The translations under genes and the position numbers were made by a program. From positions 1 to 21,090 of IMG/VR virus record IMGVR_UViG_3300027763_000276: a stretch of DNA of 21,090 bases. One strand, written 5' to 3'. The notes beneath the pieces were generated by a model. The model did not search any database, was not told where the DNA came from, and saw only the letters and a list, made by a program, of their open reading frames with translations. Below, in pieces: positions 1,165 to 19,951 of this stretch. Source of the stretch: a virus. How positions within the stretch are numbered: the first letter of the stretch is position 1; each line of letters opens with the position of its first letter.

Positions 1165-2703
1165 TTAATAGTATGCAGCCTTGCGGGCGTATCCGTACAG
1201 ATCGTCCTTCTCGTCGGAGTCCAGCGCGATAAATCCGCCTTGGCGGAACCGCATAAGCGCCTGAGTCGTTGTATCCACAAAATCGTCGTGCTCTCCCACA
1301 GGAAAAGCCGCCATTTCTTCAATTACTTCTCGCGCCCAGCGTTTATCTGGTGCCCACACCATGCCAGAGGCGAACAGATCGGACACCGCATTTAATCGTA
1401 CCATCTTGTCGTTGCCCCGGCTAGGGTTTGTTTCCTGTACAGGGATGCCCATAGCCCGCAGTTCTTGGATCAGCGGCGCACCAGACGCCTTCTTCTCCAC
1501 AATGAACGCATCCGGCTCCCATTCTTTCCAGTGTTTGAGCGCGGATACCTTCAGATCGGGGAATGTCATCCTGTCCTTGAACGCATCGAGCAGGATGATC
1601 TGGGGTTTGTCCCCTTCTTCCTCGTTGTAGAACACGCCCCACGTTGTGCAGGCGCTGTAGTCGGAGTTGTTCTTGACTTCAAACGCCGTATCCCAGCTCT
1701 GGATCACGTAGTCGCAGGTGGGCGGGTCGTCGCTTGGCCACATTCTCCACATCTTGCGCGACACGATTGCGCTGGTTTCAGATGTCGGTTGCTGCATGTA
1801 CTGCGCGTTCCAGTACCGCGGCTCAATACTTGCCTTGGTGGACTTAAGCGCCTCAAGCGCCCACTGCTCTGGCCACAATGACTTCTCTTCCGGCGTGTCT
1901 TCGTTCAAGATGGCCGGGAGTTCTACGATCTCCCATGGAACTGCGTCGGGGTTCTTGGTCTGGTAGTCAATCAAGCGTCCGGTCAAGTCAAGCAGCGACC
2001 AACGGGTCATGATGACAATGATCGCCCCACCCGGCATCAGTCGCTGAAGCGGCCCGGTCTGGAACCATGACCACGCCGTGTCAAAAGCCAGACGGCTATT
2101 GGCCTTTACGTCCTGTTCAGAATGAGGGTCATCAATAACGAACAGATCAGCGCCACGTCCAGCCAGAGCACCCCCCACGCCAGCAGCATAATACTGACCG
2201 CCAGCGCTTGTAGACCATTTACCAGCGGCCTTCTGATCGTCAGCAACCAAGGTGTTGGGAAAAACCTCATGGTACTCCTCCGTCTCGATCAGGTTACGTA
2301 CGCGCCTGCCAAAGTCTTCCGACAAACCTGCGGTGTGCGTACCCATAATGATTTTCTTCTCTGGGTACTTGCCTAAAAAGTAAGCAGGGAACAGGTAGCT
2401 TGAAAACTCTGACTTGCCCATACGCGGCGCGATGTTGATGATGACGCGTTTCTTGCGCCCCTCAATCACGTCCGTAAAGATGCGTGCTAATTTTTTATGG
2501 TGAGACCCTACCTTGAACCCGGGGTACACCGCTGTGGCAAATCCCAACATGTTTGTTTTTGCGGCCACAAGACGAGCGCGGCGTTCGCGTACATCCAAGT
2601 CATTAAACAGCTCTAACTTCTCCTGCTTAGACATGTAGGGTAAACCCTTAAGCAGTGCTTGCATTTCCACCATAGACAGCGTGGTGAGCTTTTCAAGATT
2701 CAT
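1165..2703 (-). CDS. terL: Terminase large subunit (packaging ATPase and nuclease)
   Basis: This is the DNA-packaging motor, with an ATPase that drives DNA into the procapsid and a nuclease that cuts the concatemer. At 512 aa it is full length for the family. The ATPase domain has a deviant Walker A, IAPRMGKSE (about 91-99), a Walker B ending LFVIDD (D191, D192) and a coupling motif, TRW (233-235). The RNase H-like nuclease has candidate acidic residues D338 (SWDTA), E403 (IVEKKASG) and D473/D474 or D477 (EHDDFVD). All ATPase and nuclease landmarks are present, so it looks functional. Its start overlaps the upstream gene by 11 nt, and its stop lies 9 nt before the portal start, so the three genes form one leftward operon. 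Confidence 0.96.
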   Translation of the reverse strand: MNLEKLTTLSMVEMQALLKGLPYMSKQEKLELFNDLDVRERRARLVAAKTNMLGFATAVYPGFKVGSHHKKLARIFTDVIEGRKKRVIINIAPRMGKSEFSSYLFPAYFLGKYPEKKIIMGTHTAGLSEDFGRRVRNLIETEEYHEVFPNTLVADDQKAAGKWSTSAGGQYYAAGVGGALAGRGADLFVIDDPHSEQDVKANSRLAFDTAWSWFQTGPLQRLMPGGAIIVIMTRWSLLDLTGRLIDYQTKNPDAVPWEIVELPAILNEDTPEEKSLWPEQWALEALKSTKASIEPRYWNAQYMQQPTSETSAIVSRKMWRMWPSDDPPTCDYVIQSWDTAFEVKNNSDYSACTTWGVFYNEEEGDKPQIILLDAFKDRMTFPDLKVSALKHWKEWEPDAFIVEKKASGAPLIQELRAMGIPVQETNPSRGNDKMVRLNAVSDLFASGMVWAPDKRWAREVIEEMAAFPVGEHDDFVDTTTQALMRFRQGGFIALDSDEKDDLYGYARKAAYY

Positions 2704-3268
2704 TGGGGGCTTCCGTTGGGGTCACGTCAATAACATCAACCACCTGCATGAACCGATTCAACTTGTCTTTAATGCGCGTCTCCAGTTCTGCGTCAGAAAT
2801 TTCAGTTTTCTTGACTTCAATCTGTTCTGTAAACAAACCAACTTCGGTAACCTTACCCAGCGCAATCAACGCTTTAAGCCGGATATTGGCGTTGGGGGAC
2901 TTGGTCTCTTCCACCAACTTAGCCACCGTATACCCACGGATTTCTTGCGCCATGTCTATAAACGCCCAGTCGTATGCGGCAAGCATACCTGTCAGATGCC
3001 TTACCGCTTGTGGCGTTTTGAGTTCTGCCAGCGTTGCTTTTTGCTCTATGGTGTCTGTATTGGTGGTCAGCGTGTTAAAAGCTTTTCGCGCAGCCTGAGT
3101 CTGTTGCTGGTCAGCAACATCCCCGTCATCTTCAATACCTAGATCAGCTAACCACTTCTCTGTAGCAACTTGTGCGGACAGCAAAGCTTCTGGCGACGCG
3201 TTGTCCAGTTTTTCAAAAGTGTCCTGAAAGGTGACTTCAGGTTCAAAATGCACCAAGTGATCTAGCAT
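2693..3268 (-). CDS. Probable terminase small subunit
   Basis: This 191-aa protein is the first gene of the leftward packaging operon and ends inside the terL start, the usual place for the DNA-recognition small terminase. It is mostly helical and acidic. The C-terminal half contains LKALIALGKVTEVGLFTERIE-like sequence (here KALIALGKVTEVGLFTEQIE, about 132-151) followed by a charged helix, a pattern I associate with phage small terminases. A GTVAKLVEE-like helix (YTVAKLVEE) precedes it. No clear N-terminal helix-turn-helix can be assigned by eye. The start at 3268 is supported by AAGGA 9 nt upstream. Function rests on position plus the C-terminal pattern. Confidence 0.6.
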   Translation of the reverse strand: MLDHLVHFEPEVTFQDTFEKLDNASPEALLSAQVATEKWLADLGIEDDGDVADQQQTQAARKAFNTLTTNTDTIEQKATLAELKTPQAVRHLTGMLAAYDWAFIDMAQEIRGYTVAKLVEETKSPNANIRLKALIALGKVTEVGLFTEQIEVKKTEISDAELETRIKDKLNRFMQVVDVIDVTPTEAPNES

Positions 3269-3563: not shown

Positions 3564-3581
3564 AGTGGAGGATTCTCCACT
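3564..3581. repeat. 18-bp palindrome family, copy 1 (G variant)
   Basis: AGTGGAGGATTCTCCACT. Relative to the other copies the outer pair is changed from T-A to A-T, which preserves pairing, and the centre carries G instead of A. It lies about 28 bp upstream of the extended -10 box at 3610, where an activator or repressor could act. Confidence 0.85.
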
Positions 3582-3606
3582 GTCAAGGTGATTTGGCAAC
3601 GGGTTG

Positions 3607-3615
3607 TGGTATAAT
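3607..3615 (+). promoter_or_regulatory. Extended -10 early promoter
   Basis: TGGTATAAT is a perfect extended -10 element (TG, one base, TATAAT at 3610-3615). No good -35 lies at 16-18 bp, as is usual for extended -10 promoters. Expected start is near 3622, leaving a leader of about 70 nt that contains the hairpin at 3652-3670 before the gene at 3692. Confidence 0.65.
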
Positions 3616-3651
3616 AGATGTATCGATTGGGGAAGGCCCGATCGTTCGTTC

Positions 3652-3679
3652 GCCTCACACGTTGTGAGGCTTTTCTATT
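3652..3679 (+). promoter_or_regulatory. Leader hairpin with T tract ahead of a ribosome-binding site
   Basis: A perfect 8-bp stem (GCCTCACA, loop CGT, TGTGAGGC, 3652-3670) is followed by TTTTCTATT and then GGAG at 3680-3683. It resembles an intrinsic terminator or attenuator placed directly before the Shine-Dalgarno of the gene at 3692. The same layout with identical 9-nt spacing recurs at 4198-4222. Confidence 0.65.
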
Positions 3680-3691
3680 GGAGAGTTCATC

Positions 3692-4078
3692 ATGAACAAA
3701 TCATTCATCAACTTCATCAACGCCTTGCGCGTTGCCCTCAAAGCTAACCAGAAGGTTGGCTCAGCCCTGAAGGAGTTCAAGCCTGTCTACGACAAAGCCG
3801 CACCAGAGACTCAGTGGCAGTACCGCTTGCAAGTGGCAGGTGTCATCGCATCAGCTTATCAGTGCAAGGCGCGTGAGAGCGTGTATCGCGGTGCCAAGAC
3901 AGTGGCGTTTGACGGTGACGACAGGAACGCAGAGAACGCACGGGCTTGCATGAAGTACTACTTCCCTGTGAAACCTACTGCCAAGACAAGCAACAAGGTT
4001 GATCCGGTCAAGGCGTTGCTGACAAGTTACAGCAAGCTGACTTCGGCTGAGAAGCGCCGCTTCCTTGCCGCTATCTGA
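3692..4078 (+). CDS. Hypothetical early protein, 128 aa
   Basis: I do not recognise this family. It is the first rightward gene after the extended -10 promoter and so a candidate immediate-early product. It is basic and mainly helical with no membrane segment. The C-terminus (KALLTSYSKLTSAEKRRFLAAI, trimmed core LTSAEKRRFLAAI) is a short helix of a type often seen at the ends of small phage proteins. The start is set by GGAG 8 nt upstream. Two cysteines (in YQCKARE and RACMKYY) do not form an obvious metal site. The gene stops 1 nt before palindrome copy 2. Confidence 0.8.
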   Translation: MNKSFINFINALRVALKANQKVGSALKEFKPVYDKAAPETQWQYRLQVAGVIASAYQCKARESVYRGAKTVAFDGDDRNAENARACMKYYFPVKPTAKTSNKVDPVKALLTSYSKLTSAEKRRFLAAI

Positions 4079-4079
4079 T

Positions 4080-4097
4080 TGTGGAGAATTCTCCACA
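4080..4097. repeat. 18-bp palindrome family, copy 2
   Basis: TGTGGAGAATTCTCCACA is perfectly symmetric and lies 1 nt after the stop codon of the 128-aa gene. As RNA it would fold into a 7-bp stem with an AAUU loop. There is no following T tract, so it is not a standard terminator. Confidence 0.9.
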
Positions 4098-4144
4098 GTT
4101 CCCTGCTAACCCGTGAGAGCGATGCTCTTGCGGTGTTTTATGCG

Positions 4145-4175
4145 TTGTCAATCAGCGCAACTCACGCCTTATAAC
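4145..4175 (+). promoter_or_regulatory. Candidate promoter for the 47-aa gene
   Basis: TTGTCA (4145-4150) and TATAAC (4170-4175) each match consensus at five of six bases, with a 19-bp spacer that is slightly long. An inverted repeat (ATAACT, TCC, AGTTAT, 4171-4185) covers the -10 region and could be an operator. A leader hairpin follows at 4198. Confidence 0.4.
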
Positions 4176-4197
4176 TTCCAGTTATATAAACCCCTTC

Positions 4198-4222
4198 GCC
4201 ACCTTCGGGTGGCTTTTCTTTT
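4198..4222 (+). promoter_or_regulatory. Second leader hairpin with T tract ahead of a ribosome-binding site
   Basis: The stem GCCACC, loop TTCG, GGTGGC (4198-4213) is an extra-stable UUCG tetraloop type, followed by TTTTCTTTT and GGAG at 4223-4226. Architecture and spacing match the leader at 3652. It could attenuate transcription into the 47-aa gene or end an upstream transcript. Confidence 0.65.
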
Positions 4223-4232
4223 GGAGTTAATC

Positions 4233-4376
4233 ATGCAATTCAAAGTCTATATGCCACTCATCTCAGCATGGGTGACCATCTCACAGGCTGACGGCAAAGC
4301 TTGGGTCAGCTACTACAAAGCGCAAGGCTACGAAGTCCTGCAAGTCAACCAGTCCAATGCGCGTTACTACGCCTGA
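4233..4376 (+). CDS. Hypothetical protein, 47 aa
   Basis: This small gene is unrecognised. I chose the ATG at 4233 because GGAG lies 6 nt upstream; a longer frame from 4113 would run through the leader hairpin and has no ribosome-binding site. The protein is aromatic-rich with a pattern (WVTISQADGKAWVSYYKAQGYEV) suggesting a compact strand-helix-strand fold; the core to note is GKAWVSYYKAQGYEVLQV. It is followed 11 nt later by the 65-aa gene, with which it probably shares a transcript. Confidence 0.7.
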   Translation: MQFKVYMPLISAWVTISQADGKAWVSYYKAQGYEVLQVNQSNARYYA

Positions 4377-4387
4377 AAGGAGTCATC

Positions 4388-4585
4388 ATGAGCAAACACA
4401 AACACTACGCCCTTTCACAGATGAAAGACCTTCGCCAACAGTACGTTGAGATGGTAGAGCTAGGCAAGCGCAACCAACGCGCCCTCATAAGCCACAAAGC
4501 CAAACTGCGTGAGCACCGCATCTCTGAAGGCCTTGACGAGTGGGAACAAATCAAGCGGCAGACCAAACAACTCCGACTCTGGTAA
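4388..4585 (+). CDS. Hypothetical basic helical protein, 65 aa
   Basis: I do not recognise a family. AAGGAG at 4377-4382 sets the start; a longer in-frame opening from 4301 overlaps the previous gene and lacks such a site. The sequence is highly charged with many Lys, Arg and Glu and is predicted by eye to be almost entirely helical (LRQQYVEMVELGKRNQRAL), which could form a coiled coil or bind nucleic acid. The stop codon lies 1 nt before palindrome copy 3 and the large non-coding region. Confidence 0.7.
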   Translation: MSKHKHYALSQMKDLRQQYVEMVELGKRNQRALISHKAKLREHRISEGLDEWEQIKRQTKQLRLW

Positions 4586-4586
4586 C

Positions 4587-4604
4587 TGTGGAGAATTCTC
4601 CACA
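4587..4604. repeat. 18-bp palindrome family, copy 3
   Basis: TGTGGAGAATTCTCCACA, identical to copies 2 and 5, begins 1 nt after the stop of the 65-aa gene. A further pair of half-sites follows 6 nt later, so this locus has four half-sites within about 47 bp. Confidence 0.9.
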
Positions 4605-4611
4605 ATGTACT

Positions 4612-4633
4612 TCTCCACAACGTGTTGTGGAGA
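4612..4633. repeat. Everted half-site inverted repeat
   Basis: TCTCCACAA, CGTG, TTGTGGAGA is a 9-bp stem with a 4-nt loop. It contains the two palindrome half-sites in the opposite order (TCTCCAC first, GTGGAGA second), so it was not made by simple copying of the 18-bp unit. The same protein could bind each half here. Confidence 0.75.
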
Positions 4634-4752
4634 GATTACATAAAAGTGTTGTTTTTTTGCACATACCCACCATTCTGCACATCTGGACACGACATGGGTG
4701 CGCTACAACCCGCATGGTTACTGGCGTCTCCCATACCCACGTCCACAACACC

Positions 4753-4792
4753 TATATATATATAACTTATATTCTCTTAAGATATATATATA
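4753..4792. other. A/T island with paired TA runs
   Basis: Forty bases that are nearly all A/T include a TA run at 4753-4764 and another at 4782-4792 around a CTTAAG centre. The arms can pair as a cruciform, and the island should melt readily. In the context of flanking repeats this could be a DNA unwinding element. Confidence 0.5.
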
Positions 4793-4923
4793 CCTGTATC
4801 CATGGGTGTGTTGGAACTTGCTTCTTTTTAAAAAGGTCTTATAGTTCTTTAAAAATGGTAGGTATTGTGGTCAGTTACCCCTCAAACCCAGTATCCATGC
4901 GGTTCCCAGCGCACCCACCACAA

Positions 4924-4974
4924 GTGGGTAAGTGCCCTGAATGGTGGGCCAGTAACGTATCCAAGTGGGCCAGT
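4924..4974 (+). repeat. Three direct repeats at about two helical turns
   Basis: GTGGGTAAGT (4924-4933), GTGGGCCAGT (4944-4953) and GTGGGCCAGT (4965-4974) are spaced 20 and 21 bp apart, placing them on the same DNA face. The first also pairs with ACCCAC at 4913-4918. They end 25 bp before the 211-aa gene, so they may be operator or iteron sites. Confidence 0.55.
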
Positions 4975-4999
4975 TAGCCCCAAACTGTAAGGAGATAGT

Positions 5000-5635
5000 A
5001 TGCTATTCAAATCATGCGCGAAATGCGAGGACTCTTACCCGCTGAGCCATTTCAGGTTCCGCTCCACGCTTGCACAGGCAAAAGCATGGGGCAGGACAGG
5101 CAACATACGGGTGTTGTGCGAATCCAAGCACTGCCGCAACTGCCGCGCAAAGCCCAAACCCCTGTCTAAACTCAGCGCCAAAGACATTCACAACAAGGTG
5201 CACTCAGGCGATATGCACCCATACGTTGCCAAGCACACGCTTGCCGACAAGGAACGCAGGGGGCGTAACAAGCAAGCCATCTCCTCCCGCAACAGGTGGA
5301 TCAAAGAATGGAAGGCCGAACTCAAGGCCGTGCTTGCGCCCATCACCCGCGAAATAATCAGCGCCAGAAACATCTGGCGCTACGCCAGAGACACACGCCC
5401 ACCACAAGTGCAGAAGGCTGAGTTCTACTTCGAGTACGCAGGGATGCTTGAGAGTCTCAAGACCCAAGCACAACTCAGCTTTATGACCTACCCGTGCCGA
5501 CCACGGGCATCATGGTGGCAGCTCGTGCCGCCTGAGGTATTCACTAAGACCCGCGAGTTGTGGGCAGGTGTGCCCCAGATGTATAAAAACACAGGGAAAG
5601 TACCCCTGCTCATCAAGCACAGAGATGTGGCTTGA
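5000..5635 (+). CDS. Hypothetical zinc-binding-type protein, 211 aa
   Basis: I do not recognise a named family. The N-terminus has a likely zinc-binding cluster: C6-x2-C9, then C40, H44, C45 and C48 (CESKHCRNC), which resembles a zinc ribbon or treble clef. A long basic helical stretch follows (about 85-130), then a tryptophan- and proline-rich C-terminal part (ASWWQLVPPEVF near 170). Such basic, zinc-containing phage proteins often bind nucleic acid, but that is inference. AAGGAG lies 7 nt before the start. It follows the repeat-rich gap directly, so a product acting on that region is possible. Confidence 0.75.
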   Translation: MLFKSCAKCEDSYPLSHFRFRSTLAQAKAWGRTGNIRVLCESKHCRNCRAKPKPLSKLSAKDIHNKVHSGDMHPYVAKHTLADKERRGRNKQAISSRNRWIKEWKAELKAVLAPITREIISARNIWRYARDTRPPQVQKAEFYFEYAGMLESLKTQAQLSFMTYPCRPRASWWQLVPPEVFTKTRELWAGVPQMYKNTGKVPLLIKHRDVA

Positions 5636-5645
5636 GTAAACCGAA

Positions 5646-5663
5646 TGTGGAGGATTCTCCACA
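5646..5663. repeat. 18-bp palindrome family, copy 4 (G variant)
   Basis: TGTGGAGGATTCTCCACA. It shares the central G with copy 1 and lies 10 nt after a stop codon. The only deviation from perfect symmetry falls where an RNA loop would be. Confidence 0.9.
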
Positions 5664-5702
5664 CTGCCGCCAGTCATTACTGGCAAACCAAGGAGAAAGC
5701 AA

Positions 5703-5882
5703 ATGAATGCAGGACAAGAGCACGAGTGGCACATCGAGCTGGAATACATGAGGGCGCAACTGCGCTGGGTGTTGAACAACCTCGACAACAAGCCCCGTTT
5801 CAACGATGTCAAGGGAAAGATTGAGGTTGTGTGCTCACGCCTCAATGACCTGTGTAAATTAACCAAAGGAGAAAGCAAATGA
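5703..5882 (+). CDS. Hypothetical protein, 59 aa
   Basis: This short gene is unrecognised. It is preceded by AAGGAGAAAGCAA, an excellent ribosome-binding site, and ends by ATGA overlap with the next gene. The product is helical (HIELEYMRAQLRWVLNNLDN) and contains two cysteines. Its last residues, KGESK, are encoded by the ribosome-binding site of the following gene, so the C-terminal tail is constrained by translation signals and not necessarily by function. Confidence 0.7.
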   Translation: MNAGQEHEWHIELEYMRAQLRWVLNNLDNKPRFNDVKGKIEVVCSRLNDLCKLTKGESK

Positions 5883-6283
5883 AATACGAAGCACTGATTG
5901 ACGCTCAGATGGGTAGATGGCCGGACAGCGTGGTGCTGACTGACCGGCAAATGCACGATGCCATGAAGGTAGGCATACCCGACTGGATGGTTGGTCACAA
6001 GTTCGCGGACTGGATTCACCACGACGCTCGGCACGAGATGGGTTGGTACGCTGATATGTACTACCGAGAGTGGCGTAGCGTACAGATTGAGCAGACCCGC
6101 GCACAGTGGGCACGCAATGCGTTCTATTACCGAGGCGGTGACCCTGAAGGATTCTTCTATGCGTGTGGCAAGCGCGACGATGGGACATACCGCCATGTTG
6201 GGTTTCGCTACGGCACACAAGACAGCGAGTACGCATCAGGGTTTGATGGCTTGACTTACACACCCGAAGGAGAAAGCAAATGA
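5879..6283 (+). CDS. Hypothetical protein, 134 aa
   Basis: No family is recognised. The protein is rich in Trp, Tyr and His (DWIHHDARHEMGWYADMYY around 44-62), soluble, with no membrane segment. HDARH and nearby histidines could suggest metal binding but do not match a motif I can name. It starts within the previous gene's stop (ATGA) behind AAAGGAGAAAGCAA, and ends the same way, with the same KGESK-like tail (PEGESK) formed by the next gene's ribosome-binding site. It sits in a coupled three-gene run. Confidence 0.75.
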   Translation: MKYEALIDAQMGRWPDSVVLTDRQMHDAMKVGIPDWMVGHKFADWIHHDARHEMGWYADMYYREWRSVQIEQTRAQWARNAFYYRGGDPEGFFYACGKRDDGTYRHVGFRYGTQDSEYASGFDGLTYTPEGESK

Positions 6284-6522
6284 ATACAGGAGAAAACACC
6301 ATGAATGACATTTATGTAAAAGGCACGTGGACATTTACCAGCGGGGCATGTTTTGCCCTGCGTAAGGTGGGGATAAACCTAACCGAACTAAATACTAATA
6401 AGGGGTTCTGCATACCCGCTACCGCTCTTGAAGCGGCAGGGGTGAGATATGTCAGGGGAAACCCAGAAACAAAAGGCCTGTTAACTTTAAACCATCGACA
6501 ACAGATAAGGAGAACCAAATGA
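6280..6522 (+). CDS. Hypothetical protein, 80 aa (73 aa from an alternative start)
   Basis: The family is unknown. Two starts are plausible. The ATG at 6280 overlaps the previous stop and has GGAGAAAGCAA. The ATG at 6301 has its own GGAG 8 nt upstream, and the protein from there (MNDIYVKGTWTF) looks more natural, so the first seven residues may be a leader. The fold is probably small alpha/beta. The C-terminal IRRTK is encoded by the AAGGAGAACCAA site of the next gene. Confidence 0.65.
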   Translation: MNTGENTMNDIYVKGTWTFTSGACFALRKVGINLTELNTNKGFCIPATALEAAGVRYVRGNPETKGLLTLNHRQQIRRTK

Positions 6523-6611
6523 ACTTAACCCACTGGCAACGCTTCGAGCGTGTAGTATTTTTGTTGTGCCTCATTGTGTGGGCACTTGATATGTTTTACT
6601 GGCGACCGTAA
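6519..6611 (+). CDS. Very small membrane protein, 30 aa
   Basis: This micro-gene begins by ATGA overlap with the preceding gene, behind AAGGAGAACCAA. A short basic head (MNLTHWQRFER) is followed by a hydrophobic helix, VVFLLCLIVWALDMFYW, then RP and a stop. One transmembrane segment with cytoplasmic N-terminus is likely. It could modulate a host membrane enzyme or be a small lysis accessory, but nothing identifies its role. Confidence 0.6.
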   Translation: MNLTHWQRFERVVFLLCLIVWALDMFYWRP

Positions 6612-6641
6612 GGAAAGGAGAAGGAACACTCATCAAGCTTT

Positions 6642-6659
6642 TGTGGAGAATTCTCCACA
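6642..6659. repeat. 18-bp palindrome family, copy 5
   Basis: TGTGGAGAATTCTCCACA, identical to copies 2 and 3, in the 75-nt gap before the 106-aa gene. It follows an unused copy of the leader GGAACACTCATCA (6623-6635). This is the last copy in the window. Confidence 0.9.
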
Positions 6660-6686
6660 CTTTTTAATTTTTTAGGAGTATCAAAC

Positions 6687-7007
6687 ATGGAACCAACCTT
6701 AGAGGCAATCATCATTGCCATTATCGACAAACGTGTTGCTGAGATTATGGAGGCGCACGCAACTGTGCGGCTCATCAGTGACGAGTTCATACACGAGGTG
6801 CACAAAATCGCCAACGGCGAAGCACGAAGTGTCGTGCGAGCACATGAGAGCGATTTTGTGCACCTCGGTGAGGCGGACGTAGAGAATAAGATAGGAGAGC
6901 ATGACTTCGGTGACCAGATCGATGAAGCTATGGACAACTACGACTTTGAGGACAAGATCAAGGACGTGCTCATAAACAACATCTCCCTTTCCGTACAGGT
7001 AAACTGA
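6687..7007 (+). CDS. Hypothetical acidic helical protein, 106 aa
   Basis: No family is recognised. The product is strongly acidic and apparently all helical, with heptad-like spacing of hydrophobic residues in LEAIIIAIIDKRVAEIMEAH (about 5-24) and again near the C-terminus (FEDKIKDVLINNI), which would suit a coiled-coil oligomer. DNA-mimic or antirestriction-type roles are conceivable for acidic phage proteins but are not shown. AGGAGTATC precedes the start in a 20-nt leader identical to the one before the ATPase gene at 10313. Confidence 0.75.
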   Translation: MEPTLEAIIIAIIDKRVAEIMEAHATVRLISDEFIHEVHKIANGEARSVVRAHESDFVHLGEADVENKIGEHDFGDQIDEAMDNYDFEDKIKDVLINNISLSVQVN

Positions 7008-7008
7008 C

Positions 7009-7647
7009 ATGGAATACGAAGATCTTACGCCAAGCGCACAACGTGCGGCGCTCTCTGAATATGGGGAGCCTCCAGATGACTGGCAATTGGATGTTTACGA
7101 GTATGCAAGAGAGAAAGCACGAGAGCGGGGCTTCCACATCGAGGAGATAAACTACAGCGGCTTTCACTCACAAGGTGATGGCGCGTCATGGACAGGTGTA
7201 GCCGACCTGTTGGAGTTCCTTGAGTACCACGTCCAACGTGATGTGCCCCACTATACCGAGCTCGTCATGCTCACTGAGTTGGTGCGTAACCTGCACCCTG
7301 ACAAGTGGCTGAGCTTTCACAGACGCTCGTTCTACTACTCACACAGTGGCACGATGCAGTTGGAGGACAACAACATCACGTTTGAGTTTGGTGACGAGCC
7401 TGTAGTGATGAGCTCGGGGATACTGGCAGGCGCTGATGCACGAGAGGTAGCCGATGCGATAGGGGCCAAGTATCTGTGGAATGATGTGGAGGAATGGGTG
7501 TTGCGCGAAGCAAAAGACTACGCTGACACGATTTATAAACAACTTGAAGAGGAGTACGACAACTACACAAGCGAAGAGTATTTCAAGGAACTTATCTACA
7601 TCAACGGCTGGCGCTTTGATAGCGCTGGCAAACTTATTCAGGAGTAA
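7009..7647 (+). CDS. Conserved hypothetical phage protein, 212 aa
   Basis: The function is unknown. The segment GFHIEEINYSGFHSQGDGAS (about 41-60) is a pattern I have seen in uncharacterised phage proteins (GF.SQGDGA). The protein is acidic, with many Asp, Glu and Tyr and no membrane helix. It starts 1 nt after the previous stop with only a weak AGGT upstream, so it likely depends on translational coupling with the 106-aa gene. Its terminal codons (CAG GAG TAA) provide the GGAG used by the next gene. Confidence 0.75.
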   Translation: MEYEDLTPSAQRAALSEYGEPPDDWQLDVYEYAREKARERGFHIEEINYSGFHSQGDGASWTGVADLLEFLEYHVQRDVPHYTELVMLTELVRNLHPDKWLSFHRRSFYYSHSGTMQLEDNNITFEFGDEPVVMSSGILAGADAREVADAIGAKYLWNDVEEWVLREAKDYADTIYKQLEEEYDNYTSEEYFKELIYINGWRFDSAGKLIQE

Positions 7648-7652
7648 CAAAA

Positions 7653-8018
7653 ATGGGATATAGATCAGACGTTGCATACGTCATCAAGTTTGCTGACATC
7701 AAGACGAGGGATACTTTTGTCGCGCTGATGCTGGCAAAGAACGACAAGCACATCACCGAAGCACTCGATGATGTTCGACACGATTGGGCGGAAGACCCGA
7801 TCATCACCTATCGGTGTTGTGATGTGAAGTGGTATCCAAGTTTCGATGATGTGAAGGCACACCACGCGCTTATGGGTGATGCCGTTGAGTTATACGGTGC
7901 ACGATACCGCTTCCTTGCGCTAGGGGAGGACGGAGCAGAGGACTACTCAGAAGAAGACAATGTAGGCGACTTGTACGACTACGTTTCCACCGTGCATGAA
8001 TTGCACACATCTTTTTAA
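7653..8018 (+). CDS. Conserved hypothetical phage protein, 121 aa
   Basis: It begins MGYRSDVAYVI, an opening I recognise from uncharacterised phage and bacterial proteins that start MGYRS[DE]V. The rest is an alpha/beta sequence with an acidic C-terminal part (EDGAEDYSEEDNVGDLYDYV, about 92-111). No catalytic motif is evident. GGAG overlaps the stop of the upstream gene, so translation is probably coupled to it. Confidence 0.75.
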   Translation: MGYRSDVAYVIKFADIKTRDTFVALMLAKNDKHITEALDDVRHDWAEDPIITYRCCDVKWYPSFDDVKAHHALMGDAVELYGARYRFLALGEDGAEDYSEEDNVGDLYDYVSTVHELHTSF

Positions 8019-8040
8019 TCAACCATTAGGAGAATCAAAC

Positions 8041-9015
8041 ATGGCATTCACTTGCAAAGACTTTCAATCCGCAGAAAAGATATTTAACGCACGAGGCCCT
8101 GTGCGTAGCGCACAGTGGGCACCTAATGAGAGGCCACTAGATGACCGTCCTCAAAAGCAACACCGCTTAATCAAGCACACCGAGGACGGCGTGACGTACT
8201 ACGACATCAAGCTGTACCAGACTATCATGGCACGGTTCTATGAGCCTAAGGTGGAGTGGATGATGGACGCTGTGCGCCTTGAGCGTAGGCTGTACATGGG
8301 CGACAGTTCCCAGACGAGTAAGCAGTTCATGTGGCACACACTCCATGTCGGCACAATCAACATTACACGCACAGGCAAGGGCAATGCCACCGATGACATA
8401 GTGTGGCCTGTCTACAACCATGCAGGTCTGAGCGACAGGGGTACGCCGTTCAGTCTTGACGCTACGTTTGTGAACGGTGAGCTTGTGCCCATGCGATCAG
8501 CGCATACGCCGCACTACCGTATGATTGCAGATACAGACGACAAGAAGCGTAGGGCAGACGTTGCCAAGCACTTTGAGAACTACATCATGCTTGCGCTTAT
8601 GCGTATGCCTGCTTACAAAGCGGCGTGTGTGCCTCAAGATAGGCTAGGCCGACCGTTCGGGGGCAACGGGTTCGAGCACAAAGAACACGAGGCAGTGCAG
8701 TGCTTGCTCTTGGACGAGGAGCCATCGCAGTATGCGTTTGATGCGTTCTTCGCAATGTGTCAGGGAGTGTATGACACCATCGTATCCAAGCGGGGGAGGG
8801 AGCAACAAGGGTTTGTATTGAACCGTTCTTGGGGGGGTAACCGGACAGTCAGTTCGCCTGATGAGTTGGAGAAGCCTGTTGAAACGCCAGAGTTTCGCAG
8901 ATCAATCCTTGAGCGTGTTTACAAATACGCTGGGGAGAATAAACGTAGCAAGAAAGTAGAGGTGAAACAATTTCCAAAGTACGCTGAGTACCCTAAGTCC
9001 AACATCTGTTGCTAA
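8041..9015 (+). CDS. Hypothetical protein, 324 aa
   Basis: I do not recognise this family. The ATG at 8041 is chosen because AGGAG lies 8 nt upstream; an opening 45 nt earlier overlaps the previous gene. The protein is soluble and basic, with a central part rich in His, Asn and Thr (FMWHTLHVGTINITRTGKG, about 84-102) and a C-terminal Lys-rich tail ending in Cys-Cys. No Walker, HNH or metallopeptidase motif is seen. It precedes the promoter of the VWA/MoxR module, from which it is separately transcribed or read through. Confidence 0.75.
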   Translation: MAFTCKDFQSAEKIFNARGPVRSAQWAPNERPLDDRPQKQHRLIKHTEDGVTYYDIKLYQTIMARFYEPKVEWMMDAVRLERRLYMGDSSQTSKQFMWHTLHVGTINITRTGKGNATDDIVWPVYNHAGLSDRGTPFSLDATFVNGELVPMRSAHTPHYRMIADTDDKKRRADVAKHFENYIMLALMRMPAYKAACVPQDRLGRPFGGNGFEHKEHEAVQCLLLDEEPSQYAFDAFFAMCQGVYDTIVSKRGREQQGFVLNRSWGGNRTVSSPDELEKPVETPEFRRSILERVYKYAGENKRSKKVEVKQFPKYAEYPKSNICC

Positions 9016-9030
9016 GGGTAGGGTAAATGC

Positions 9031-9065
9031 TAGGTTGTCAAGTCTTTGACAACCTATGCTATAAT
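9031..9065 (+). promoter_or_regulatory. Promoter with embedded inverted repeat for the VWA/MoxR module
   Basis: TGCTATAAT is a perfect extended -10 (TATAAT at 9060-9065). TTGTCA at 9035-9040 could be a -35 at 19 bp. An 11-bp-arm inverted repeat (TAGGTTGTCAA, GTCT, TTGACAACCTA, 9031-9056) covers the -35 zone and stops just before the -10, a classic operator position. As no T tract follows, it is not a terminator. Confidence 0.65.
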
Positions 9066-9090
9066 TTGTTCAACAACATAGGAGAAGCAA

Positions 9091-10293
9091 ATGAGCTTTG
9101 AAAAGATGACTCTCAATCAGAGAGTACAAGCCGCCAACATTGACTGTATGCGGCACCCTAAGTTCGCACTGCTCAGTGGTGCGATCATGCTCGGCAAGTC
9201 CGAGGTGGTAGAGAAGATGAAGACAGCGGCAACCAATGGCCGTGACAAGAAGTATGGTGCGGCGTTCGTTACGATACTCAATCGCAAGCAGTTGCGCTAC
9301 TTAGTTCTGCATGAGAACTTTCACGTTGCACTCAAGCACTGCATCCTGTTCAAGGATGTCAAGAAGAAGTATCCCAAGCTGAGCAACGTAGCGCACGACT
9401 ACGTAGTCAATGCACTGATCGAAGAGATGGACCCCGACTTCAAGTTTGTCGAGCGTCCGTCCGAGAGTTTGTGTATTGACCGCAAGTATTTCGGTTGGTC
9501 ATTCCCTCAGGTAATGAACGATCTCATTGCACAAGGGCGTAAGGAACCCAAGGATGGTGAGGGTACGGGCGAGAATGATGAGGGCTTTGATGAGCCGATT
9601 GATTCACACGAGGATGGTGAGTTCGATGATGACCCGATCGAGCGTGACAAGCTTGAGAAGCAGATCGATGATGCCAACCGTCAAGGTGAGATGCTTGCTC
9701 GTAAGTTGGCAGGTAAGGGCGATGGCAACCGCGACATCTTGGGTACTGCCAAGGAACGCATGACAGATTGGAAGCAAGCGCTTCAAGACTGGATCAGTTC
9801 CGTCTCTTCAGGTGATGACAACTCACGGTTCAGTCCTCCAAACAAGCGACTGCTTGCTTCTGGGTTCATCATGCCATCGCACTTCACGGAGACTGTCGGT
9901 GAGTTGATCCTTGCTGTTGATACATCGGGTTCAATGTACCCGTACTATCGCTTGCTGTTCGGTGAGATCGCTCGTATCTGTCAGCTTACTAAACCTGCCG
10001 CTGTGCGTGTGCTGTGGTGGGACAACGCTGTGTGTGGTGATGAGACATTCAAACCTGCGGACTACGAGCAGATCGCATCGCTCATGAACCCCAAGGGCGG
10101 TGGCGGCACTACTCCACAAGTCGTTGTCGACTACATCCGCGAACACAAGATCGACGCTAAGGCAATCGTCTGGTTATCAGATGGCTACCTTGGTTGCGAT
10201 GACCCAGTTACCCCAATGCCGTCTCTGTGGGGCATAGTGGAGAACGACTCGTTCGTTCCTGCTCACGGCAAACTCTTGCGTATATCTGTTTAA
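9091..10293 (+). CDS. Metallopeptidase-like and VWA-like domain protein (DUF2201 type), 400 aa
   Basis: The N-terminal part has a zinc-peptidase signature, HENFH (74-78) with H83, followed by VAHDYVVN (D103), as in the putative metallopeptidase domain of DUF2201 proteins. A long acidic linker (about 150-195) leads to a C-terminal von Willebrand A-like domain with a complete metal-ion-dependent adhesion site: DTSGS (277-281), GGGGTT (T340/T341) and SDG (D364). In this family VWA proteins act as substrate or partner adaptors for MoxR-type ATPases, and one is encoded 19 nt downstream. Start is fixed by AGGAG 7 nt upstream. All key residues are present. Protease activity is inferred. Confidence 0.85.
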   Translation: MSFEKMTLNQRVQAANIDCMRHPKFALLSGAIMLGKSEVVEKMKTAATNGRDKKYGAAFVTILNRKQLRYLVLHENFHVALKHCILFKDVKKKYPKLSNVAHDYVVNALIEEMDPDFKFVERPSESLCIDRKYFGWSFPQVMNDLIAQGRKEPKDGEGTGENDEGFDEPIDSHEDGEFDDDPIERDKLEKQIDDANRQGEMLARKLAGKGDGNRDILGTAKERMTDWKQALQDWISSVSSGDDNSRFSPPNKRLLASGFIMPSHFTETVGELILAVDTSGSMYPYYRLLFGEIARICQLTKPAAVRVLWWDNAVCGDETFKPADYEQIASLMNPKGGGGTTPQVVVDYIREHKIDAKAIVWLSDGYLGCDDPVTPMPSLWGIVENDSFVPAHGKLLRISV

Positions 10294-10312
10294 TTTTTTA
10301 GGAGTATCTATC

Positions 10313-11437
10313 ATGCAAAACTTTCTGACACACAACCAAGTTGTTTCCCTCATCGCCGCTATCGGTGGCAAGCGTACCGTTATTGTGGAGGGCGAGAACG
10401 GCATCGGCAAGACCGCGCTGTTCCATGCCTTGCGTAAGCTTCCCAAGTTTGCCAACCACATCGCTGTTCGTCCTATCGACTGCACTCAGTTGTCTGATGG
10501 CTCGGTGTGGATGCCTGACCTTGATCGTGAGAATGGCGTCTCCCGTGAGTTGCCTAACGAACGCTTCGGTGTTAGCGCACACAACCAACTCGGTGTCAAC
10601 AATGCACAGCCAATCATGGTCATGCTCGATGAGATCGCCAAGGCTCCTCAGTTCATCAAGAACGTGCTTGCACCTATCATATACGAGCGTCATGTAGGCA
10701 ACCTCGGTATGCCAGAGGGTAGCGTTGTGTTCTGTGCTACCAACCTGTCAATCGAGGGTCTGGGTGACAGCATCCAAGCACACTTGCGTAACCGTCTCGT
10801 GTTCGTCAAGATGCGTAAGCCTACTGCTGACGAGTGGGTCAAGTGGGCTACGGACAACAACGTGCACCCCATGGTGATTGCTTTTGTCAACAACGAGCCA
10901 CGCGTTATGCACAGCTTCCTTGACTACGAGAAGGGCGGTATGTTCGAGGGCAAGGATATGTCCAAGGACAATGGCTTTGTGTTCAATCCCAAGTCTACGC
11001 AACTTGCGTACGCTACGCCTCGCTCGTTGGTTGCCGCTAGTGACATCTTGCATGAGGGTCTTGGCGTTCTTGATGACGATACGTTGGAGGCGGCGTTGAT
11101 CGGTACTGTGGGTGCGACTACTGCACAGGCATTGGCATCGTTCATTCGGTTCGGTCGTGACATCTGTGACTACGCTCGTGTCATCAAGTCACCAGATACT
11201 GCGCCGTTGTCTGACAACCCTACAGCGCAGTTGATTCAGGTATTCCAGTTCGTTACTCGCGTAGCTGACCGGACAGAGGCATCGTCCATCGTCAAGTACG
11301 TATGGCGTATGCGGGCAGAGATGCAATCGATCTTCTGCAACACAGTGGCATCTAGTTCTCGTGTGGCTACGTTTGCTACTGTTGATGGCTTCGGCACTAT
11401 GTTGGCCGAGCACAAAATCTTTTTCTCAACCAAGTAA
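10313..11437 (+). CDS. MoxR-type AAA+ ATPase, 374 aa
   Basis: This ATPase probably remodels a protein complex together with the VWA protein encoded just upstream. Walker A is GENGIGKT (27-34), Walker B is IMVMLDE (101-107), sensor 1 is CATN (141-144), and the arginine-finger region is HLRNRLVFV (157-165). The small lid domain follows with PTADEWVKWA. This matches the MoxR/CbbQ/NirQ group, which work as hexamers with VWA proteins to activate or mature targets. GGAGTATC with ATC-ATG gives the start. The leader is identical over 20 nt to that before the gene at 6687. Confidence 0.9.
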   Translation: MQNFLTHNQVVSLIAAIGGKRTVIVEGENGIGKTALFHALRKLPKFANHIAVRPIDCTQLSDGSVWMPDLDRENGVSRELPNERFGVSAHNQLGVNNAQPIMVMLDEIAKAPQFIKNVLAPIIYERHVGNLGMPEGSVVFCATNLSIEGLGDSIQAHLRNRLVFVKMRKPTADEWVKWATDNNVHPMVIAFVNNEPRVMHSFLDYEKGGMFEGKDMSKDNGFVFNPKSTQLAYATPRSLVAASDILHEGLGVLDDDTLEAALIGTVGATTAQALASFIRFGRDICDYARVIKSPDTAPLSDNPTAQLIQVFQFVTRVADRTEASSIVKYVWRMRAEMQSIFCNTVASSSRVATFATVDGFGTMLAEHKIFFSTK

Positions 11438-11449
11438 GGAGTATCAATC

Positions 11450-12334
11450 ATGAACACTAATACACCCCGTCACAATCTCGACACCTGCGCTATGCTTGTG
11501 GAGTTCAACGCTTCCGTGTGGACAGCACGTAAGTTAGATAAGTCAACCTCTGATGAAGTGGTGGCAAGCAAGAATGCGGGGGCAAAGGATGCCGCTCGTG
11601 TCAACAAGCACCTGCTTGCAGGTCGCACTGAGCTGGACGTAATCCAACAGGCCGTTGGCCGTGCTCGTCAGTTTGTGTATGACAACACTGCACCTTGGTC
11701 TGACTCCGGTCTGCGTCTTCTGCCTACCGTCAACTTCATGAAGTTCACTGAACGTATGAATGACTTTGAGGAAGAGATCGAGGCGCTCGTCAAGTCCTTC
11801 GTAGCCATCTACCCCACGCTCATCACTGCACAGGCGTTGGCACTGGGGGATATGTTTAAGAGAGACGACTTCCCCACCGCCAATGAGATCATGACCAAGT
11901 TCTCGTTCCGTGTGAACTATATGCCTGTCCCCTCGTCGGGTGACTTTCGTGTAGATGTGGGCAATCAGGCACAACAAGAGCTGAAGGAGCGACTTGAAGC
12001 GCTGACTCAAGAGCGTATCGACTTGGCCATGTCTGATGTGCGTGAGCGTCTTGGAACCCACCTGAAACGTATGTCTGACAGACTGACTACAGACTATGTG
12101 AACGGTGAGGCTAAGTCTCGCCGCTTCCACGACACCCTTGTTGATGGGGCGCTTGAGTTGTGTGATCTCACCAAGTCATTGAACGTAACCAATGACGCTG
12201 ATCTTGAGGGCGCACGTCACCAGTTGGAACAGTTGCTTGTGGGTGTAACTCCAACCGATCTCCGTAAGAATGAGGCTATTCGTCAAGACGTCAAGAAGAA
12301 CGTAGATGCCATCCTCGACAAGTTCAACTTTTAA
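11450..12334 (+). CDS. Helical partner protein of the VWA/MoxR module, 294 aa
   Basis: Third gene of the module, 12 nt after the ATPase, with AAGGAGTATC before the start. The protein is largely helical, with a segment near the N-terminus (LVEFNASVWTARKLDK, about 16-31) and long charged helices later (ELKERLEALTQERIDLAM, about 173-190). It resembles the phage family I remember as DUF3150, which is found beside such ATPases, but that assignment is from memory and unverified. A structural or substrate role in the complex is inferred from gene order. Confidence 0.7.
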   Translation: MNTNTPRHNLDTCAMLVEFNASVWTARKLDKSTSDEVVASKNAGAKDAARVNKHLLAGRTELDVIQQAVGRARQFVYDNTAPWSDSGLRLLPTVNFMKFTERMNDFEEEIEALVKSFVAIYPTLITAQALALGDMFKRDDFPTANEIMTKFSFRVNYMPVPSSGDFRVDVGNQAQQELKERLEALTQERIDLAMSDVRERLGTHLKRMSDRLTTDYVNGEAKSRRFHDTLVDGALELCDLTKSLNVTNDADLEGARHQLEQLLVGVTPTDLRKNEAIRQDVKKNVDAILDKFNF

Positions 12335-12343
12335 AAGGACTAC

Positions 12344-12502
12344 ATGAACACGCACCACCTAACCAGAGTGCGTCGTATGTTTGCTACGTATGACGCACCA
12401 CCAAAAACAATTCGCAGTTATCAGCGCCAGTGGGTTCGATCTGTGAGAGCGCTTGGTGACAAGTGGTTGATCGCACACTTTATGCAAAAGCAGGGGAACT
12501 AA
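12344..12502 (+). CDS. Hypothetical basic protein, 52 aa
   Basis: This short gene sits 9 nt after the module, with AAAAGGAC before the ATG. The product is very basic (HHLTRVRRMFATY and RSYQRQWVRSVRALG), probably two helices that could bind nucleic acid. It abuts the next gene with no gap: TAA ends at 12502 and a GTG follows at once, with GGGG in its own last codons serving as ribosome-binding site. No family is recognised. Confidence 0.6.
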   Translation: MNTHHLTRVRRMFATYDAPPKTIRSYQRQWVRSVRALGDKWLIAHFMQKQGN

Positions 12503-13222
12503 GTGCGATACCGCCGCCATATTTCTACACTGTCTACTGACAAGACGGTGTTAACTCCTGACGAAGTAGAGCGGCGTCTTCATGGCGCTCCTCTGACTGA
12601 CCTTAACAAGCTACAACCTGTTGCCTCAAGCGGAGGGGCAGTTGAAGCACAACAACTTATGCAAAGACTTTCATCAACTACTACGAAGGGAACACTCATC
12701 ATGCCTGACATCCAGACCGCACTTAAAAATGCAATCAATACTTGGGAACCCACCCCCATCAACCCCGTTCAACAACTTGAGGAGAACACAATGCAGATTA
12801 AACCAGTACCTTTTTCCATCCAAAATAATGTTACTCGTGTGACGTTCGACTACGTGAAACAGCATCCCGGCACTAGAGCCGTGTCCGCCGCTCGTGATTT
12901 AGTGAAGCTTGGCTTCAAGGAATCTTCCGTTACATCTCTGATGGCGCAGTTTGTACGAACAGGTCTAGCTGTGCGAGATAAGAATGGCGGTTACCGCGTG
13001 ACACAAGAAGACTACGTACCCATGAAGGCTAAACAAAAGAAGCAATCAGCACCCGCGCCTTCTCTTAAGAGCGGTCTTGAAGGCATCGCCGCGCTACGAC
13101 CTGAAGGTAAGAAGATGCATACACTTGTGCTAAACAAATCGCCACAAGATATTACGCAACACTTGACGGTTTATCAAGCAAAAGAACTGTACGATCACCT
13201 GAAACAACTGTTCGGAGGCTGA
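12503..13222 (+). CDS. Winged-helix-like protein, up to 239 aa, with several possible starts
   Basis: The middle (about residues 110-167) looks like a winged helix: TFDYVKQHPG, a recognition-like helix ESSVTSLMAQFVRTG and a wing VRDKNGGYRVT. The C-terminus QAKELYDHLKQLFGG is a short helix common in phage proteins. Three starts have support: GTG 12503 (239 aa), ATG 12701 with AAGGG (173 aa) and ATG 12791 with GAGGAG (143 aa). The last has the best ribosome-binding site and still keeps the whole DNA-binding-like region. The N-terminal 96 residues are low-complexity and may be a separate peptide or linker. A regulator role is plausible. Confidence 0.65.
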   Translation: MRYRRHISTLSTDKTVLTPDEVERRLHGAPLTDLNKLQPVASSGGAVEAQQLMQRLSSTTTKGTLIMPDIQTALKNAINTWEPTPINPVQQLEENTMQIKPVPFSIQNNVTRVTFDYVKQHPGTRAVSAARDLVKLGFKESSVTSLMAQFVRTGLAVRDKNGGYRVTQEDYVPMKAKQKKQSAPAPSLKSGLEGIAALRPEGKKMHTLVLNKSPQDITQHLTVYQAKELYDHLKQLFGG

Positions 13223-13223
13223 C

Positions 13224-13427
13224 ATGGACGCTACGTTTGCTTTAATAAAAGAGTTAGTAATCACCTGCGGCATCATCTTTGCCCTAATGTGCTTTATGGC
13301 GCTGTGCTTTTGGATGTACCCGAGCATGAATGAGGTACGGAAAATGGACTGCGCGATGGCAGAGTTTTCACCTGACATGGCGTTGGAAGTTAAACAAGCA
13401 TGCCGAGAGGCGAGGAGTAAAAAATGA
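13224..13427 (+). CDS. Small single-span membrane protein, 67 aa
   Basis: A transmembrane helix (LVITCGIIFALMCFMALCF, about 11-29) is followed by a short charged cytoplasmic or periplasmic tail rich in Met, Cys, Glu and Lys. GGAGG lies 5 nt before the start, 1 nt after the previous stop. The size and single span would fit a holin or spanin-like role, but no lysis gene is nearby, so function is open. Confidence 0.7.
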   Translation: MDATFALIKELVITCGIIFALMCFMALCFWMYPSMNEVRKMDCAMAEFSPDMALEVKQACREARSKK

Positions 13428-13660
13428 GTGAGTATTACGATGAAATGGCTGGCGACATTGCCCTTGCCGAGCAGGCATGGGAAGAGCGAGAAGCTCGGCG
13501 CAACTTCCGCACGGAAGTATGGACAACAAAAGACGGGCGTCGGATTGCCATCAAGGACATGGAAGACAGCCATCTGTTCAACGCATACAAGCACAGCCAA
13601 GACCGCTTGCTGTTCCGCGAGATGGTGCTACGCCTTTTTGAAGAAAGGATGAAGAAATGA
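13424..13660 (+). CDS. Conserved small phage protein, 78 aa
   Basis: The N-terminal half is acidic and helical. The C-terminal half carries VWTTKDGRRIAIKDMEDSHL (about 32-51), a pattern (W.T.DG..I.I..M.D.HL.N) that I recognise from small proteins in many phages and whose role is unknown. ATGA overlap with the preceding gene and GAGGAG upstream set the start. Confidence 0.75.
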   Translation: MSEYYDEMAGDIALAEQAWEEREARRNFRTEVWTTKDGRRIAIKDMEDSHLFNAYKHSQDRLLFREMVLRLFEERMKK

Positions 13661-13857
13661 ACAACCCACCAGCATTTCCGTTGCATAACCACGGCGCACA
13701 AACGCTTGGCTTGCACGTTACAGGCATGACCCTGCGAGATTATTTTGCGGCTAGGGCGATGCAGGGAATTATTTATGAAGGCGCAGAATCATCATTAGAG
13801 ATTGCCAAATGGTCGTATGAAATGGCGGATGCCATGTTGAAAGCGAGGGAGTCATGA
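13657..13857 (+). CDS. Conserved small phage protein, 66 aa
   Basis: Contains MTLRDYFAARAMQGII (about 24-39) and ends YEMADAMLKARES, a pattern widely seen in small uncharacterised phage and prophage proteins (TLRDYFA..AM, then A..AY.MADAML..R). No enzymatic motif is known to me. It overlaps its neighbours by ATGA on both sides. Confidence 0.8.
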   Translation: MNNPPAFPLHNHGAQTLGLHVTGMTLRDYFAARAMQGIIYEGAESSLEIAKWSYEMADAMLKARES

Positions 13858-13949
13858 AACGGCAAACAAAACTGGAGGTTGCATTTGTGTTTGTGTGCAT
13901 GGCGGTGATATCAATGATTGCATGGAGGTTTTATGAGTGGATGGCGTAA
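13854..13949 (+). CDS. Very small membrane protein, 31 aa
   Basis: A micro-gene overlapping the previous stop (ATGA). A basic head, MKRQTKLE, is followed by a hydrophobic helix, VAFVFVCMAVISMIAW, then RFYEWMA. It looks like a single-span membrane peptide with cytoplasmic N-terminus, similar in design to the 30-aa protein at 6519. The next gene starts 17 nt before its end in another frame. Confidence 0.6.
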   Translation: MKRQTKLEVAFVFVCMAVISMIAWRFYEWMA

Positions 13950-14157
13950 AAGGACGATCATGGAGATGGCGCGGGAAACCAAACTGCCTTATGACTTTGT
14001 AACAGGTGAGCCGTTGTACGCAGAAAAATTGGAAGCCTTTGCCAAGTTGGTGCGTGCTGATGAGCGTGAACAAATAGCGCAGTGGTATGACACAACGGGA
14101 CATGTTTTGATGCGGCACGAAGTACCAGACGCCATACGAGCAAGGGGACAAGCATGA
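13933..14157 (+). CDS. Tandem small-gene array, member 1, 74 aa
   Basis: First of four related genes. Motifs in order are IMEMA (N-terminal), FAKLVRADERE (middle) and AIRARGQA (C-terminal). Small phage proteins of this kind are common and uncharacterised. GGAGG lies 4 nt before ATG 13933; an in-frame ATG at 13918 lacks a good site. A 35-bp segment (14035-14069) matches member 2 at 14235-14269 with one difference, exactly 200 bp away. Its last codons form the ribosome-binding site of member 2. Confidence 0.75.
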   Translation: MSGWRKRTIMEMARETKLPYDFVTGEPLYAEKLEAFAKLVRADEREQIAQWYDTTGHVLMRHEVPDAIRARGQA

Positions 14158-19937: not shown

Positions 19938-19951
19938 AAGGAACACTCATC

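Follow-up and report, generated by a model that had tools for sequence, protein, structure and literature searches.

Dispersed palindromes in the early region of a phage group as probable operators of a small, co-varying phage protein

The viral fragment analysed here, IMG/VR record IMGVR_UViG_3300027763_000276 (21,090 bases, hereafter the window), carries five copies of an 18-bp palindrome between positions 3564 and 6659. These palindromes are likely to be DNA operators of a phage-encoded dimeric regulator, the small protein c11, which would regulate both its own gene and the early region. From the sequence comparisons below we infer that c11 binds the sites directly and as a dimer, and that it represses rather than activates; the early timing is judged from position and promoter only. 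The terminase of the window lies on the minus strand, and a rightward block starting at ~3.6 kb encodes small unknown genes, a VWA protein, a MoxR-like ATPase, a DNA polymerase and an exonuclease. No near match to the window was found among GenBank phages, and the nearest named phages by terminase were distant (~51% identity at best). No Rfam family and no tRNA were detected in the window. The principal features are as follows.

3564 to 3581, no strand: operator 1, AGTGGAGGATTCTCCACT, 5' of the inferred c11 promoter
3692 to 4078, plus strand: c11, predicted palindrome regulator, 128 aa, with an N-terminal domain that co-varies with palindrome type and a conserved C-terminal tail with EKRRF
4080 to 4097, no strand: operator 2, TGTGGAGAATTCTCCACA, 1 nt past the c11 stop codon
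4587 to 4604, no strand: operator 3, TGTGGAGAATTCTCCACA, on the left border of a conserved noncoding block
5646 to 5663, no strand: operator 4, TGTGGAGGATTCTCCACA, between two genes, with the next start codon 39 nt on
6642 to 6659, no strand: operator 5, TGTGGAGAATTCTCCACA, with the start codon of the gene at 6687 lying 27 nt on

Scanning the window recovered all five palindromes where an earlier, sequence-only reading had placed them. With up to three mismatches allowed, the window gave five matches and 100 dinucleotide-preserving shuffles gave none. Site 1 (3564) has no gene upstream on its strand, while the other copies follow the preceding stop codon by 1 nt (4080), 1 nt (4587), 10 nt (5646) and 30 nt (6642); three copies thus lie within 10 nt of a stop codon, as had been reported. 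The ATG at 5645 opens an out-of-frame open reading frame (ORF), and the real start, at 5703, is preceded by AAGGAGAAAGC. Variation among the copies was also correctly described as a central A or G plus a swap of one outer T-A pair to A-T. The description of the copies as always lying between genes applies to all five in the window and fails in the relatives, since most GCNGACA and ACAGACA types (defined below) have their first copy inside the coding sequence of the first gene.

To survey relatives, 52 loci were fetched with the VWA protein, so that the motif played no part in their choice. The motif seen in the window appeared at first in only some of these loci; nearly all that reached far enough upstream contained repeated palindromes in the same places with other sequences. 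Each lineage has its own half-site, and all copies in a genome and both arms of each copy switch together. The site types are listed below, with half-sites read inward and the number after the slash giving the spacer in bp.

T1 (window): GTGGAGA/2
T2: GTGGTCA/2
T3: GCGGACA/3
T4: GCAGACA/3
T5: AGTATCA/3
T6: GCTGACA/3
T7: ACAGACA/3
L320, found later: GTGGACA/2
L359, found later: CGGGTCA/3

Spacer-3 types add an outer ACTN...NAGT, giving a 25-bp element. The compensatory change claimed from the window comes to one outer pair there; between genomes it is strong, with every copy and both arms changing together. Because all copies and both arms switch in concert, some factor must read them.

The sites are confined to one part of the genome. 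T1 and T2 records of 46-66 kb (G001, G002 and G003) hold exactly five sites and none elsewhere, and two shorter T1 records (23 and 36.5 kb) hold exactly five as well. In records of other types, 2-4 sites fit a strict pattern exactly and one or two imperfect copies usually accompany them, all in the early block; L179 (T6) has three sites only. Records of 44-66 kb contained five or fewer pattern matches, in a single block. Among distinct sites in related loci, 250 of 251 fell between ~560 nt upstream and 5 kb downstream of the c11 stop. The site at the place of operator 2 is the most constant across relatives, and the place of operator 1 is kept in GTGGAGA, GTGGTCA and some AGTATCA relatives. 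One locus, L184, perhaps stands between types: ~1.5-4.9 kb upstream of its VWA gene, four of its sites are GCGGACA and the fifth is GCTGACA.

Chance recurrence of the motif was considered and rejected. A scan of viral contigs turned up isolated single matches and about a dozen related contigs, each bearing 3-5 copies laid out as in the window, and bacterial genomes gave scattered single matches only. Lone matches were spread over unrelated phyla as chance predicts, and every multi-copy match was a relative. Together with the co-variation of c11 described next, the confinement of the sites to one block lends good support to the proposal of a phage-specific operator regulon restricted to the early region.

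Of the genes compared, c11 was the one that tracked palindrome type. Types T1-T3 have near-identical backbones, and among them the mean c11 distance was 0.16 within types vs. 0.59 between types, while distances for VWA, MoxR, TerL, c3, c4, c5, c8, c12 and c13 were about equal within and between types. The partial rank correlation with site distance, given VWA, was 0.49 for c11 and at most 0.31 for the others. When backbones at least 90% identical were compared after removal of redundancy, c11 separated same-type from different-type pairs with an area under the curve (AUC) of 1.00; the same test gave 0.40 for TerL, 0.71 for c3, 0.69 for c4, 0.48 for c12, 0.61 for c5 and 0.36 for VWA. When one T3 genome was compared gene by gene against T3, T2 and T1 genomes, two genes came out as type-linked: c11 and a gene of the tail region that was matched in part. 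Among c11 proteins non-redundant at 95%, the nearest neighbour had the same site type in 42 of 47. The most HTH-like (helix-turn-helix) early protein by eye, c8 (12503-13222), was rejected as the specificity factor: T2 and T3 share its putative recognition helix, and it ignores type.

A second set of loci was assembled from two scans with c11 alignments (A1 and A2) as the sole query, and yielded 105 loci with a c11-like ORF, or 85 distinct contexts, a few of the ORFs being probably spurious. Site types could be assigned at 100 of the 105, and a palindrome matching the type lay within 25 nt past the c11 stop in 96 of these 100; palindrome families were found through repetition near c11, so that chance families are possible, and the place after the stop was not imposed. 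The use of c3 as a query retrieved no relatives. All 25 loci with a subfamily A c11 have 2-bp half-site spacing, and typed loci with a subfamily B c11 have 3-bp spacing. T3 has the T1/T2 backbone, yet it carries a subfamily B c11 and 3-bp spacing. A second site is usually present as well. It lies inside the gene ~340 nt before the c11 stop in GCNGACA and ACAGACA types; in T1, T2 and some T5 its place is upstream of the promoter, ~510-530 nt ahead of the stop, and in L320 and L336 it is just 5' of the ribosome-binding site, ~420-430 nt ahead of the stop. The first site thus moves between types yet stays at the promoter or 5' end of c11.

The local architecture of c11 adds two features.

3607 to 3615, plus strand: putative extended -10 promoter of c11, read from sequence, TGGTATAAT
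3618 to 3676, plus strand: c11 leader RNA, immediately 5' of the c11 ribosome-binding site; it folds into two hairpins, of which the second is terminator-like

The promoter pattern TGNTATAMT, with ATCGNTTGGGG downstream, is conserved in ~20 relatives. The promoter counts as putative because it was missed by the consensus scan, which depends on a -35 box and found no plus-strand promoter in the region. The leader hairpins could possibly act as an attenuator or cis antiterminator.

The palindromes are better read as DNA operators than as RNA hairpins, although each copy folds well as RNA. The 7-bp stem and 4-nt loop described earlier were found in every copy, and the flanks of the 4080 copy lengthen its stem to 10 bp. 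Hairpins in early transcripts could be cleaved in processing, end transcription or be recognised by an RNA-binding protein. A T-run like that of an intrinsic terminator follows site 2 in most relatives, CTTTTTAATTTTTT comes after the 6642 copy, arm changes are compensated between genomes, and residues 38-93 of c11 gave weak KH-like fold matches. However, sites 3 and 4 have no T-run after them, and the flanks pair no more often than by chance: the arm-adjacent N base of the spacer-3 types pairs in 62 of 211 sites, below the 75 expected under independence, and pairing of the outer conserved bases does not exceed expectation. Within types, 73 sites have one uncompensated change vs. three clean compensated sites, all of which are the outer pair of T3 site 2. 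Most within-type variants affect one end of the arm (48 at the innermost position, 17 at the outermost), and some of the outer changes would still allow a G-U pair; the arms alone do not decide between DNA and RNA, because interior positions almost never vary within a type. The leader next door, a genuine RNA structure, does have two-sided changes, at 7 of 19 pairs across relatives. In T1, T2 and some T5, site 1 precedes the inferred promoter and hence falls outside the transcript made from it; in other types it lies inside c11. A role as RNA hairpins is consequently unlikely, and the processing hairpins offered by the sequence-only reading are not favoured. Site 2 may also form part of a terminator, given the T-run in most relatives, though this run is absent in the window.

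Another phage or host protein might bind the sites, with c11 co-varying merely by linkage to sites 1 and 2. Since c11 sits physically between these two sites, linkage may explain part of the co-variation, which weighs against the regulator reading; some of the compared genomes are incomplete, and c3 and c4 show a mild type association (AUC ~0.7). Linkage cannot account for sites 3-5, because c3, which lies between sites 3 and 4, ignores type: these sites switch too, and the genes between them do not. In addition, the c11 subfamily fits the spacing class across backbones, and the sole other flagged gene is the partly matched one in the tail region. We regard it as improbable that linkage is the whole explanation.

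Several further observations count against c11 as the regulator. The c11 of the window is 59-60% identical to other T1 c11 proteins and 55% identical to those of T2, and so about equally far from both. No confident Pfam or PHROG family was found for c11, and its structural models (pLDDT 82 and 77) gave no confident fold match, the best being a Foldseek E of 0.22 in the PDB and a VIA Z of 5.9, the latter against designed and unrelated proteins. Around sites 2-5 the consensus scan detected no sigma-70-like promoter possessing both boxes. Two c11 proteins had no match among 50,697 phage records, and a c11 profile had none among PDB sequences. On the supporting side, the models run through three helices, a beta-hairpin, a helix, a linker and two C-terminal helices that bear the conserved EKRRF tail. 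From this topology a winged helix is plausible; given that no confident fold or family match was obtained, the term is a topology reading only.

The arrangement suggests the following mode of action for c11 as the regulator. As the first gene of the rightward block, c11 would accumulate early and would bind all sites as a two-fold symmetric dimer. Through the operator at its promoter, leader or 5' coding end, c11 would shut down its own promoter; another operator stands just past its stop codon, and three more stand at the upstream edges of the following gene groups. With operators at the promoter or 5' end and behind the stop, self-feedback is the simplest role. Judged by position, c11 would more probably repress than activate. 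Start codons follow sites 4 and 5 at 27-39 nt with no promoter called, which implies either a road-block or an unrecognised promoter type. Most likely c11 would restrict transcription across the early region, in part by acting as a road-block where a site has no nearby promoter.

The sites could instead have a role in replication or packaging, in which case c11 would be an initiator or a terminase-like DNA-binding protein. A conserved AT-rich noncoding block adjoins site 3, and the c11 model gave weak small-terminase matches in BFVD (best E 0.033, TM 0.23). A better small-terminase candidate, judged by position only, is found at 2693-3268, overlapping the large terminase, and the sites extend over 3 kb at gene borders, one of them, where present, always being at the promoter or 5' end of c11. 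This explanation seems quite unlikely.

Hairpin promoters of the coliphage N4 kind, read by an RNA polymerase that the phage injects, were considered after the VWA protein proved to have distant homologs in N4-like phages. N4 promoters require specific loop bases (PMC4496689). The sites occupy the same class of position, as short-centred early palindromes of which two precede start codons by 27-39 nt, and the phages encode a cysteine-free protein of 2827 aa. This idea was nevertheless rejected as very improbable: the N4 mini-vRNAP matched none of 10 records while its N4 control did match (records may be incomplete, and a distant homolog could escape), the giant protein matches LPD38 and not vRNAP, the centre varies freely (central spacer base C in 74, T in 50, G in 44 and A in 43 of 211 sites) where a conserved 3-nt loop with a central purine would be needed, and a site 1 inside c11 would give a truncated message. 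A search for T7-type RNA polymerase was uninformative by itself, its control being silent. The giant protein is encoded in L236 at 5467-13950 on the minus strand, reaches up to 3144 aa in relatives, and is perhaps an ejected virion protein.

Several known systems resemble the proposed one. In lambda-type phages, Cro and CI act at dyad-symmetric sites near an early promoter, and related phages differ in operator and regulator specificity; the lambda operators are grouped in two control regions, whereas single sites are spread along gene borders here. The N4 vRNAP promoters are likewise early-region inverted repeats with short loops, but differ in their specific loop bases and in a vRNAP gene that was not found here. 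In logic the nearest systems are the stoperators of mycobacteriophages and SPBRE/MrpR, and dispersed phage operators with a co-evolving regulator are already known in kind. Among cluster A mycobacteriophages (L5 and Bxb1), the stoperator consensus differs per lineage and the repressor co-varies (PMC6550527). Like stoperators, the present sites are several copies of a short presumed repressor site, one of them at the regulator's own locus, and their consensus changes between lineages together with the presumed repressor, here c11. Stoperators are asymmetric and oriented with transcription, unlike the two-fold symmetric sites described here, and number 20-30 per genome, genome-wide, compared with usually five in a 3-kb early block. 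A stoperator with repressor bound stops transcript elongation even at a distance from promoters. Stoperator phages are also temperate, with an integrase or parABS; no tyrosine or serine recombinase (PF00589, PF00239) was found in our 14 records of 44-66 kb, which may be incomplete; the present phages may still be temperate. SPBRE of Bacillus phage SPbeta was likewise a repeated intergenic element first found from sequence, and was later shown to be the site of the regulator MrpR (PMC10516654). Unlike c11, MrpR has a tyrosine-recombinase-like fold, and SPBRE sites occur in the promoter regions of many genes across the prophage. No relation of c11 to the stoperator or MrpR repressors was detected, and the likeness to stoperators is one of logic, not membership. 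We found no literature on dispersed palindromic early-region operators in phages.

An unnamed family of small phage proteins is hereby tied, by sequence alone, to its probable DNA targets, across ~85 distinct loci and no fewer than eight site types. Matched pairs of this kind would allow a test of how a protein and several dispersed operators shift specificity jointly, and could be a source of orthogonal regulator-operator pairs. They would also reveal whether immunity-type diversification happens in non-integrating phages. It is conceivable, if doubtful, that these phages, in which no integrase was detected, carry a new regulator family that has split into at least eight matched protein-site types, so that close relatives no longer answer each other's regulator and non-lysogenic phages fall into immunity groups during co-infection.

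Other elements were observed beside the sites. The conserved AT-rich noncoding block at site 3 spans 4605-4999 and is a candidate replication origin or noncoding RNA; its hairpin TTCTCCACAACGTGTTGTGGAGAG (4611-4634) is nearly unchanged across several operator types. Directly past site 5, 6687-7007 encodes a short, acidic, fast-evolving protein that by its look is a DNA-mimic candidate. A leader motif, GGGAACACTCATC or a close variant, occurs at 6622-6634, 12688-12700 and 19939-19951. It precedes start codons, except for the 6622 copy, which lies upstream of site 5, likewise in relatives.

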